Assembly (NCBI RefSeq): GCF_900109195.1 | Contig: NZ_FNZG01000003.1 | Span: 62,001 to 126,000 of the forward strand | Direction of reading: 5' to 3' | Length of the DNA: 64,000 bases | Origin: Pseudooceanicola nitratireducens | Lineage (GTDB): Bacteria > Pseudomonadota > Alphaproteobacteria > Rhodobacterales > Rhodobacteraceae | Notes under the pieces: model-generated | What the model saw: only the letters and a program-made list of their open reading frames with translations | The model's database searches: none | Told to the model about the DNA's origin: nothing | Translations under genes and position numbers: made by a program | In this document: one piece after another, positions 49,710 through 53,166 of the stretch | How positions within the stretch are numbered: position 1 is the stretch's first letter | Layout: every line of letters begins with the position of its first letter

Positions 49710-51344
49710 TCAGCCCGCTTGCGTTTCGCGCAGCAGCTTCCAGTTGATCGCATCCAGAAGCGCCTCGAACGAGGCATCCACTATGTTCGGGCTGACCCCG
49801 ACCGTGGACCAGCGCCGCCCGGCCCCGTCTTCGCTGTCGATGATGACGCGGGTTACCGCCTCGGTCCCGCCCTGGGTGATCCGCACCTTGAAGTCGACCA
49901 GGTGCATGTCCGAAATCGCCTCCTGGTACTGGCCCAGGTCCTTGGCCAGCGCAGTCGCCAGCGCGTTCACCGGGCCGCGATCGGTCCCGGCCTCATCCAT
50001 CGACTCGCTGACCGACAGGCGCTTTTCGCCATCGACCTTCACCACGACGACCGCTTCCGACAGACTGACCATCTGATCGTACTTGTTCTTCCGCCGCTCT
50101 ACCGTCACCCGGTAGCGCTTGACCTCGAAGAACTCGGGCATCTGCCCCAGGACCTGCCGCGCCAGCACCTCGAAGCTCGCCTGGGCAGAGTCGTAGGTAT
50201 AGCCGCGATCCTCGCGCGCCTTCACCTCGTCCAGGATCCGCGCCAGCGCCGGATCGCCCGCCGGCACCTCCAGCCCCGCCTCGGCCAGACGGCGGCGCAG
50301 GTTCGACTGCCCTGCCTGGTTCGACATCGGGATCACCCGCGTATTGCCGACAACCCCCGGGTCCACATGTTCATAGGTCGACGGATCCTTGAGGATCGCG
50401 CTGGCATGCAACCCCGCCTTATGCGCAAAGGCCGAGGCCCCGACATAAGGCGCCTGCTTTACCGGCACCCGGTTGAGGATATCATCCAGCTGACGCGATA
50501 CCTGCGTCAGCCCCTGCAGGGCCTCTTCGCTCACCCCTGTCTCATATCGGCTGCGATAGGGCTCCTTCAGCAGCAGCGTCGGGATCAGCGTCACAAGGTT
50601 GGCATTGCCACAGCGTTCACCCAAGCCGTTCAGTGTGCCCTGAATCTGCCGTACGCCCGCATCCACCGCCGCCAGCGACCCCGCCACCGCATTGGCCGTG
50701 TCGTTATGCGTATGGATGCCCAGATGATCGCCCGGGATCCCCGCCGCGATCACCTCACCTACGATCTGCCCAATCTCCACCGGCAGGGTGCCGCCATTGG
50801 TGTCGCACAGCACGATCCAGCGCGCCCCCGCCTCATGCGCCGCCCTCAGGCACTCCAGCGCATAGGCCGCATTGGCCTTGTAGCCATCAAAGAAATGCTC
50901 CGCGTCGAACAGCGCCTCGCGCCCCTGCGCCACCAGATGCTTGACCGAGGCGCGGATGTTCTCGACATTCTCGTCCAGCTCGATGCCAAGCGCGGTCGTG
51001 ACGTGAAAATCATGGGTCTTGCCGACAAGGCAGACACTCTGCGTCCCCGCGTTCACCACCGCCGCCAGCACATCGTCATTCTCGGCCGAGCGCCCGGCCC
51101 GCTTGGTCATGCCAAAGGCCGCCATCCGAGCGCGCGTCTCGGGCGCTTCGGCAAAAAAGGCACTGTCCGTCGGGTTCGCCCCGGGCCAGCCGCCTTCGAT
51201 GTAATCCACACCCAGCCGGTCCAGCATGGCACAGATCTGATGCTTCTCGGGCGTCGAGAACTGCACCCCTTGGGTCTGCTGCCCGTCCCTCAGCGTCGTG
51301 TCATAAAGAAACAACCGTTCCTTTACCGTGTTGGCCTTAGCCAT
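49710..51344 (-). CDS. cimA: (R)-citramalate synthase
   Basis: 544 residues. The N-terminal TIM barrel has LYDTTLRDGQQTQGVQF with metal ligands and GTLNGLGERCGNANLVTLI. The C-terminal regulatory domain (about 410-544) resembles that of LeuA. It condenses acetyl-CoA with pyruvate, giving isoleucine precursors without threonine deaminase. GGAGG precedes the ATG at 51344. The repeat H core ends about 14 bases before that start, so the repeat effectively forms its leader. LeuA2-type isopropylmalate synthase is less likely. Confidence 0.92.
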   Translation of the reverse strand: MAKANTVKERLFLYDTTLRDGQQTQGVQFSTPEKHQICAMLDRLGVDYIEGGWPGANPTDSAFFAEAPETRARMAAFGMTKRAGRSAENDDVLAAVVNAGTQSVCLVGKTHDFHVTTALGIELDENVENIRASVKHLVAQGREALFDAEHFFDGYKANAAYALECLRAAHEAGARWIVLCDTNGGTLPVEIGQIVGEVIAAGIPGDHLGIHTHNDTANAVAGSLAAVDAGVRQIQGTLNGLGERCGNANLVTLIPTLLLKEPYRSRYETGVSEEALQGLTQVSRQLDDILNRVPVKQAPYVGASAFAHKAGLHASAILKDPSTYEHVDPGVVGNTRVIPMSNQAGQSNLRRRLAEAGLEVPAGDPALARILDEVKAREDRGYTYDSAQASFEVLARQVLGQMPEFFEVKRYRVTVERRKNKYDQMVSLSEAVVVVKVDGEKRLSVSESMDEAGTDRGPVNALATALAKDLGQYQEAISDMHLVDFKVRITQGGTEAVTRVIIDSEDGAGRRWSTVGVSPNIVDASFEALLDAINWKLLRETQAG

Positions 51345-51357
51345 GCCGCGCCCCTCC

Positions 51358-51401
51358 ATCCTCTTGCCCGAAATATCTCGGGGTCCGGGGCAGCGCCCCG
51401 G
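51358..51401 (+). repeat. Intergenic repeat copy H (CTTGCC type) with hairpin
   Basis: ATCCTCTTGCCCGAAATATC then TCGGGG, followed by CCGGGGC-AGC-GCCCCGG (51385-51401). It lies between cysS and cimA, both on the minus strand, and in + orientation. On the minus strand it abuts the cimA ribosome binding site. Confidence 0.75.
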
Positions 51402-51434: not shown

Positions 51435-52931
51435 TCACAGCAGCCCCTCCAGCTTGGCCGGATCGAACCCCGCACCGGGCAACAGCGTCACATCATTTTT
51501 CGACATCTGCACCTCGACCCCCGCCTCAATCAGCGCGGCCTTGAGCCGGTCCACCTCGGAAAAATCCTTGCTCGCCATCGCGGCTTCCCGCAATTCAGCA
51601 AGCTTCCTGCCAAGTCCTTGCAGATCAGCTTGTCCGTTGGCCGGGTCGCCGCCAAGGCTGGAGTACTGGCTGCCCCGCGTGACGCCATTGTCGCCCGCAC
51701 GCGCTTCGAAGTAGGCAAACTCCTCAATCAAGCCCTCCGGAGAAAAGCCCAGTAAAACCAAGGTTCCCAGCAGGTTATGGATTTCCGAGTTTTTGAGATA
51801 TCTGTTCAGATGCGTCAAAGCCAGCGACGTATTGAGATCGTCGCAAAGGGCGTCCACCAGTTCTTTCGGCGGCACAAACAGTGTCAAACTCGACCAGAGA
51901 TCAAGTTCCAAGGCGTCTTTCAGGCGCAAGGCGATCTTCCGCAGCGTGGCTTCCGCCTCCGCCCGCTTCTTCTCGGTCCAATCCATCGGCTTGCGGTAAT
52001 GCGTGCCCAAAAACACGAACCGGATCACCTCGCCCGGGACGCCCTGATCCAGCAGATCGCGGACGGTGAAGAAATTGCCCAGGGACTTGGACATCTTCTT
52101 GCCCTCGACCTGCAGCATCTCGTTGTGCAGCCAGACGCGGGCAAAGCCGCCGTGGTCGTGGGCGCAGCAGCTCTGCGCGATCTCGTTTTCGTGGTGCGGG
52201 AATTGCAGGTCGATGCCGCCGCCGTGGATGTCGAATTCCTCGCCCAGGATGTCATCCGCCATGGCAGAACATTCGATATGCCACCCCGGACGGCCGCGTC
52301 CCCAGGGGCTGTCCCAACCCGGCAGATCGTCCGAAGACGGCTTCCACAGCACGAAATCCATCGGATCGCGCTTGTAGGGCGCGACCTCGACCCGAGCACC
52401 GGCGATCATGTCCTCGACCGACCGGCCCGAGAGCGCACCGTAGTCGGCATAAGAGCCGACGGAAAACAGTACATGCCCCTCGGCGGCATAGGCGTGGCCA
52501 CGGGTGATCAGCCCCTCGATCATCGCGATCATCTGCGGGATATACCCGGTCGCGCGCGGTTCATGATCCGGGCGCAGCGCGCCAAGCGCGTCCATGTCGG
52601 CGTGATACCAGCCGATGGTTTCCTCGGTGCGCTCGTGGATCAGATCCTCCAGCGAACCCTCGGCCCCCGCCTCTTTGCGCGCAAGGGCGGTGGCGTTGAT
52701 CTTGTCGTCCACGTCGGTGAAGTTGCGCACATAGGTCACATGCTCACTGCCATAGACGTACCGCAGCAACCGGTTCAGCACGTCAAAGACCACCACGGGC
52801 CGGGCATTGCCCAGATGCGCCCGGTCATAGACCGTGGGCCCGCAGACATACATCCGGACGTTCTTGGGATCGATCGGCTCGAAGACCTCTTTCTTGCGGG
52901 TCTTCGAATTCGTCAGGCGTATCTCGACCAT
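51435..52931 (-). CDS. cysS: Cysteinyl-tRNA synthetase
   Basis: 498 residues. The zinc-binding Cys30 is in [19 protein letters not shown], where HLGN is the HIGH motif. Other zinc ligands lie in WHIECSAM and [12 protein letters not shown], and KMSKSLGNF is intact. The C-terminal 150 residues, after [19 protein letters not shown], are encoded by visibly less GC-rich DNA than the rest. It charges tRNA-Cys. GAGGGA precedes the ATG and can be sequestered by the upstream element at 52937-53007, preceded by a Cys-rich leader ORF. Confidence 0.97.
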
Positions 52932-52936
52932 GATGG

Positions 52937-53007
52937 TCCCTCGCGGTTGGTCCGCGGGCGGCTTAGCAAGATCGTCGTGATTTGGAAACGAAAAGCGGCC
53001 CGCGAGG
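52937..53007 (-). promoter_or_regulatory. Putative translational attenuator of cysS
   Basis: Three segments on the minus strand can pair in alternative ways. Segment 1, CCTCGCGGGC (53007-52998), pairs perfectly with segment 3, CCGCGAGG (52946-52939), over eight bases, covering part of the cysS Shine-Dalgarno GAGGGA. Segment 1 can instead pair with segment 2, GCCCGCG (52959-52953), over seven bases. Segment 2 can also form a 5-bp hairpin with segment 3. The layout fits a ribosome-controlled switch, by inspection only; no folding energies were computed. Confidence 0.55.
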
Positions 53008-53012
53008 ATGTC

Positions 53013-53057
53013 TCAGCAGGCGATAATGCAGCAGGTAATGATGCGGCGTGTCGTCAT
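53013..53057 (-). CDS. Cysteine-rich leader peptide upstream of cysS
   Basis: A 14-residue ORF, MTTRRIITCCIIAC, starts at 53057, ends with TGA at 53013 and lies 81 bases upstream of the cysS ATG on the same strand. Three of 14 codons are Cys (TGC), at positions 9, 10 and 14, including the last before the stop. Cys is the amino acid charged by the downstream synthetase. The stop is five bases from segment 1 of the putative attenuator. The Shine-Dalgarno before the ATG is weak, and that is the main doubt. Confidence 0.55.
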   Translation of the reverse strand: MTTRRIITCCIIAC

Positions 53058-53166
53058 GGCCCAAGGCTTAGCCCGCCCCACCTCCCCTGCCAAGGGAAAA
53101 AGGCGCACCCCTTTGAACTGCTTGCCCCCGAGGGCCAGAAGACGCACGGTGAAATCCTCTGCCGCC

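Follow-up and report, generated by a model that had tools for sequence, protein, structure and literature searches.

A conserved cysteine-codon leader and competing RNA structures upstream of cysS likely form a cysteine attenuator in the window (the whole 64-kb stretch of DNA analysed here), and this leader probably raises cysS when charged cysteine-tRNA is scarce. The locus fits best into the published motif uORFC-8-2, compared with which some of the working details proposed below may be new. A cysteine attenuator had already been suggested in a preliminary description of this DNA. The conserved leader and the competing structures speak for that interpretation, while two of its parts, the pairing between segments 1 and 3 and, as a general rule, the third Cys codon as a sensor, had to be given up.

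In the window, the leader is a minus-strand ORF of 14 codons, running from an ATG with its A at 53057 to a TGA ending at 53013 (Table 1). Its three Cys codons and the 81 bases between its stop and the cysS ATG (52931) had been described beforehand and were confirmed by coordinates, and the segments CCTCGCGG (53000-53007), GCCCGCG and CCGCGAGG were likewise in place as claimed. From its sequence, we take the cysS product to be cysteinyl-tRNA synthetase. On the same strand, 3' of cysS, lies a gene (49710-51359, minus) that presumably belongs to the citramalate/isopropylmalate synthase-like family.

Table 1. Coordinates of the leader, promoter elements, pairing segments and cysS in the window
Feature	Position	Strand	Remark
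P1 -35 element TTGGCA	53088..53093	-	predicted; from a CTTGGCA-type motif fitted across the 115 leader loci
P1 -10 element TAAGCC	53065..53070	-	predicted; +1 falls on the A of the leader ATG or beside it
Leader ORF MTTRRIITCCIIAC	53013..53057	-	predicted leaderless translation
Tandem Cys codons 9 (53031-53033) and 10 (53028-53030)	53028..53033	-	likely sensing codons
Third Cys codon (codon 14)	53016..53018	-	likely hairpin arm, not sensor
Hairpin A	52998..53021	-	5' arm (final codons, stop codon) pairs with GCGGG in segment 1
Segment 1 (S1) CGCGGGCC	52997..53004	-	common to hairpin A and the S1:S2 helix
T-rich tract TTTTCGTTT	52986..52994	-	possible weak terminator tail; overlaps P2 -35
P2 -35-like element TTTCCA	52983..52988	-	predicted
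P2 -10-like element TAAGCC	52960..52965	-	predicted; TGn before
Segment 2 (S2) GCCCGCG	52953..52959	-	pairs with S1
Segment 3 (S3) CCGCGAGG	52939..52946	-	overlaps cysS SD
cysS SD GAGGG	52938..52942	-	
cysS, cysteinyl-tRNA synthetase	51435..52931	-	498 aa

Leader conservation and promoter geometry

To follow the leader beyond the window, we used the 154 of 159 family genomes that carried cysS and chose a single upstream region per genus, 130 in all with the window's own. A leader profile was passed by 115 of these 130 loci, versus none of 130 reverse complements and none of 1300 shuffles; since the profile was derived from the very loci that it scored, the two controls, rather than the raw score, constitute the test. 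The preliminary description had named conservation of the leader ORF across Rhodobacteraceae as a check on its proposal, and these counts bear it out. Within the genus, DNA matches were present in 22/22 genomes and the leader ORF held at least two Cys codons at all 22 loci (L082-L103). A leader with at least two Cys codons was also found in 18 of the 24 named loci that were either close or titled as Rhodobacteraceae or as a genus of that family (L002-L021, L024-L026, L075), L004 and L015 among these 24 being titled only Alphaproteobacteria. The 15 loci below the leader threshold comprised five with low-scoring Cys-containing ORFs (L154, L162, L165, L209, L232), one that stops at a contig end (L149) and nine without a leader candidate.

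At E <= 0.01, a sequence-only model, R1, built on 49 family loci, found matches in at least 244 of the 295 family genomes, with the places of the matches partly checked and weak chance matches occurring. Among the 240 genomes of the outside set, three of which belong to the window's family, 152 matched at E <= 0.1, mostly in a weak, partial and chance-like manner, and one match, in G236, lay directly upstream of its cysS. In the window's own genome, the three weaker matches listed were partial (best E 3.1e-4). A second leader copy was rejected at the best of these (C18:210239), the one inspected, which directly precedes a 215-aa ORF and showed no Cys leader. A second cysS-like gene was found in one genome (L104 in G007), 58% identical in the matched stretch and without such a leader seen upstream.

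The leader loci also share the geometry of a predicted promoter, P1, directly in front of the leader. The P1 motifs, which were seeded by eye, reached a mean score of 13.3 versus 5.0 when fitted to shuffled sequence, and their spacer was 17 nt long in 90 and 18 nt in 20 of the 115 leader loci (110/115 together), with T at the first position of the -10 element in 111/115 and A at the second in 114/115. The leader AUG fell at +1/+2 of the fitted P1 in 107/115 loci, its position being flat in shuffles. Given this geometry, the leader mRNA is probably leaderless, and a Shine-Dalgarno sequence (SD) would therefore be unnecessary. An SD-like duplex of -5 kcal/mol or stronger preceded 28/115 leaders, the window's among them (-5.3 kcal/mol), versus 87/115 cysS genes. 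The leader SD had earlier been called poor; a duplex energy of the window's size is not negligible and counts against the switch model given below. A consensus promoter scan called no promoter at P1 in the window, which may be because most promoters of Rhodobacter sphaeroides are of the type that lacks T at -7 (PMC10232725).

Codon usage and competing RNA pairings

The position of the Cys codons is nearly constant, with Cys at -6 to -4 from the stop in 114/115 leaders and at -5/-4 in 109/115. Of the 115 leaders, 75 have a tandem Cys pair, which in 69 leaders sits at index 8-10, and the window's pair, codons 9-10, is on this comparative evidence the likely sensor. The third Cys codon, which had been counted among the sensing codons, behaves differently: whereas the Cys codons before the last codon were TGC 250 times and TGT 20 times, the last codon of the 115 leaders was TGC in 55, CGC in 33, GGC in 15, GCC in 4 and another codon in 8. 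The last codon thus retains mostly the GC needed for pairing rather than Cys, and because it is interchangeable with CGC, GGC and GCC, the third Cys codon is probably structural, as part of a hairpin arm. As a general sensor it was discarded; where it is replaced, the residue is mostly Arg, Gly or Ala. The leader stop was UGA in 110/115 leaders of the family. The codon at -3 from the stop was ATT in 103/115, though Ile elsewhere in the leader is often encoded by ATC.

Single-sequence folds of the window were unremarkable against shuffles (z -1.55 and -0.97), and the structural case therefore rests on comparison. Compared across the family, hairpin A and the S1:S2 helix are predicted to be mutually exclusive pairings that share GCGGG, and both co-evolve. 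For hairpin A, the co-evolution of the two halves reached z -5.3 over 110 loci (z -1.7 in a cruder test), the fold z was below 0, and thus better than the shuffled mean, in 107/110, and the core was paired in 93/110. By eye, the base after the leader stop switches together with its partner within the genus (TGAG..CTC versus TGAC..GTCA). Between the leader stop and S1, four loci (L110, L112, L118 and L125) carry, again by eye, an additional stretch of self-complementary sequence.

The S1:S2 pairing gave z -4.3 over 114 family loci and z -1.84 within the genus. Its core is nearly fixed across the family, and one flanking pair varies between C-G (33) and G-C (31) in 96 loci (Fisher p 8e-10), 67 of the 96 being paired versus 40 expected. 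At three other positions the paired counts among the same 96 loci were close to expectation (38 versus 35.7, 72 versus 68.0 and 30 versus 26.2). One parsimony reconstruction, using a 56-locus cysS tree, placed seven C-G/G-C double switches at the flanking pair, along with 12 other changes that result in a mismatch or a G-T pair. In alignment A3, S1:S2 was 92.3% paired versus 87.3% when shuffled (0/500 shuffles), with 13 of 37 sequences unpaired at the flanking position, and its covariation score was 0.091, a level that one slid control (+2) approaches with 0.083. RNAalifold returned only the 5-bp S1:S2 core on alignment A3; on alignment A2 it found no structure, and no stem holding the tandem Cys codons.

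The covariation check on the segments proposed earlier came out in favour of segments 1-2 and against segments 1-3. Native S1:S3 pairs were no better than swapped ones in the family (z 0.0, 104 loci) or the genus (z -0.2, 20 loci), and this pairing was dropped as a conserved element. S2:S3 co-evolved weakly in the family (z -2.6, 103 loci) and showed no such signal within the genus (z 0.67). When S1 was freed, the predicted openness of the cysS SD rose in 84/110 loci, from a mean of 0.332 to 0.412 (p 3e-9), and with a shuffled S1 it was 0.355, below the value with S1 freed (p 1e-7). In the window itself, the predicted change was very small (0.165 to 0.200).

A proposed switch model, its rivals and a predicted second promoter

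The model that best fits these data, to which as a whole we assign a probability of roughly 0.55, combines a leaderless leader, a stall at Cys codons 9-10, a blocked hairpin A, and both read-through and an opened cysS start. P1 would start transcription on the leader AUG or right beside it, and the ribosome would load on the leaderless end. When Cys-tRNA is scarce, the ribosome would stall at codons 9-10 and cover the last codons and the stop, which are the 5' arm of hairpin A; the footprint of a ribosome stalled at -6 to -4 would reach this arm. With hairpin A blocked, RNA polymerase would read on, the freed S1 would pair with S2, the cysS SD would be more open and cysS would rise. When Cys-tRNA is plentiful, the ribosome would leave at the UGA, hairpin A would form and transcription might stop at the T-rich tract, while in RNAs that continue past this tract S2, left unpaired by S1, could pair with the SD region and cysS would fall. 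Initiation at a second promoter, P2, would fall immediately 3' of S2 and supply a baseline of cysS expression that escapes the switch. The leader, the promoter spacing and the co-evolution of hairpin A and of S1:S2 lend the model comparative support, while stalling, termination, SD opening in vivo and the activity of P1 and P2 are inferred.

For the T-rich tract, the T fraction was 0.85 at +10 from S1 (110 loci), and at least five T in eight were found in 75/115 leader loci versus about 5/115 when shuffled. In the window, the run has six T in eight and starts only 3 bases after the stem, and a terminator scan of the window called none by its criteria; a terminator at this site would be non-canonical. 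Transcription attenuation alone, as published for uORFC-8-2 (PMC8632094), would here make hairpin A an intrinsic terminator and leave S1:S2 without a translational role, and the T-rich tract after S1 across the family and the strength of hairpin A agree with it. We nevertheless consider it unlikely, since the scan called no terminator in the window and S1:S2 co-evolves even though the T tract begins about 30 bases ahead of its 3' half, which means that the helix would matter only once polymerase had read through.

The opposite reading, control of translation alone, in which hairpin A would not end transcription but only withhold S1 from S2 and S2 would then mask the cysS SD, appears a little less likely still. 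It would account for the co-evolution of S1:S2, for the shift in SD openness and for the empty terminator scan, but the SD is predicted to gain only modestly in openness, and very little in the window, the co-evolution of S2:S3 is weak, and the T-rich tract is conserved in the family, though it shares some of its bases with the P2 -35. The switch model, which joins termination to action at the cysS start, remains our preferred reading.

The P2 boxes, of the types TTTCCA and TGnTAAG and 17 nt apart in the window, were fitted separately, and their spacer was exactly 17 in 67/115 and 16-18 in 80/115 loci, versus about 10 in a control with the upstream part shuffled. A P2-like element scored above the 99% null in 90/115 leader loci and in 9/15 loci below the leader threshold. 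These included five of the nine loci without a leader candidate (L141, L113, L219, L179, L230), the element not exceeding the 99% null in the other four (L208, L127, L227, L221). Genome-wide, the P2-like pattern gave four matches versus one in the backwards control, too few to judge. As the predicted P2 start lies just after S2, RNA from P2 would carry neither S1 nor S2. According to the preliminary description, a cysS transcription start downstream of 53013 would refute its proposal; this objection is partly alive, given that the predicted P2-like element lies there, and the attenuator may therefore control only part of cysS expression. On the sequence evidence, P2 could even make the attenuator minor. 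That the leader is a mere relic, with cysS driven mainly by P2 and the upstream conservation largely promoter sequence, would suit the P2-like elements in loci with and without a leader candidate, but is improbable, as promoters explain neither the Cys codons kept in 114/115 leaders nor the compensatory pairing changes.

Hyphomicrobiales leaders and known systems

Outside the family we scanned 125 loci, that is, 124 from outside and L025 (Sulfitobacter). A leader score of at least 6 was reached by 26/125 loci (L025 included), versus 2/1250 shuffles and 0/125 reverse complements, with a score that was devised after the rhizobial leaders had been seen and with some of the 26 looking unrelated by eye. 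Among 17 named loci with upstream sequence that we take to be Hyphomicrobiales, the order of six having been looked up by name, Cys-containing leaders were present in 12 (L023, L036, L041, L045, L047, L050, L051, L052, L054, L056, L063, L079; several of them close relatives) and were not found in the other five (L035, L037, L038, L065, L071). The stop of these leaders, TAG in 11/12 and TAA in L036, lies inside a hairpin such as GCUAGCG..CGCUGGC, with fold z from -0.69 to -3.63. In a scan run without a shuffled control, a TTGAC-type box preceded 11/12 of the leaders, with the chosen -10 ending 5-7 bases before the AUG. The 12 leaders are probably leaderless as well, and would widen the range of the published motif beyond Rhodobacterales.

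Tentatively, and with the odds somewhat against it, we propose a two-layer control of cysS common to two alphaproteobacterial orders, consisting of a leaderless Cys leader, a stop codon within the switching hairpin and action on both termination and the start site, with a bypass promoter in the window's family. Such control would link the charging of one amino acid to its synthetase in two large bacterial orders, probably through a leaderless leader, and would offer a compact model in which the stop codon itself belongs to the switch.

Control of an aminoacyl-tRNA synthetase by tRNA charging is also known from the T-box riboswitch, which acts on synthetase genes in Firmicutes and works by direct tRNA binding, without a leader peptide. 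At gathering score, Rfam 15 matched only four tRNAs in the 64-kb window, all elsewhere, leaving the element unmatched, and a scan of the small region gave only matches far below gathering scores and no riboswitch family. Membership of a known Rfam family, the T-box included, was accordingly rejected for the element.

The motif uORFC-8-2 was reportedly described in 2021 by Brewer et al. It comprises 145 unique examples, "exclusively" upstream of cysS in Rhodobacterales, with a conserved AUG uORF, tandem Cys codons, a run of U at the 3' end and two stems, with the Cys codons in the first, and it was presented as an attenuator candidate for which ribosome-mediated attenuation was proposed (PMC8632094, 2021). 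The preliminary description knew of no described case for cysS in Rhodobacteraceae; that view is wrong, uORFC-8-2 being such a case. A literature search for the motif name returned only PMC8632094, and further accounts of cysS leaders in alphaproteobacteria were not found in the open-access literature searched. The window's locus lies upstream of cysS in Rhodobacterales and has a conserved AUG uORF with tandem Cys codons, so that position, uORF, tandem codons and proposed attenuation are shared with the motif as described (PMC8632094). The tandem Cys codons differ in position, being at 14-15 in PMC8632094 and at index 8-10 here. A leaderless start, predicted here, is absent from the available text of PMC8632094, which likewise makes no mention for uORFC-8-2 of a second promoter, of an S1:S2 pairing across the T tract or of Hyphomicrobiales members.

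Leaderless leaders with this kind of role have precedents. The mycobacterial polycysteine attenuators (Canestrari et al. 2020, via PMC9031893 and PMC13236596), preceded by the leaderless Cys short ORFs of Shell et al. 2015 (PMC4633059), are like the present case in that a leaderless short ORF with consecutive Cys codons regulates downstream genes. They control cysteine biosynthetic genes and not cysS, as far as these accounts go, and we draw the likeness without a claim of homology. Within the alphaproteobacteria, trpL/rnTrpL of Sinorhizobium meliloti is an attenuator whose leaderless leader ORF of 14 aa starts at its AUG, as is predicted for the window's leader of 14 codons, but it is a tryptophan attenuator and precedes trpE (PMC10117765).
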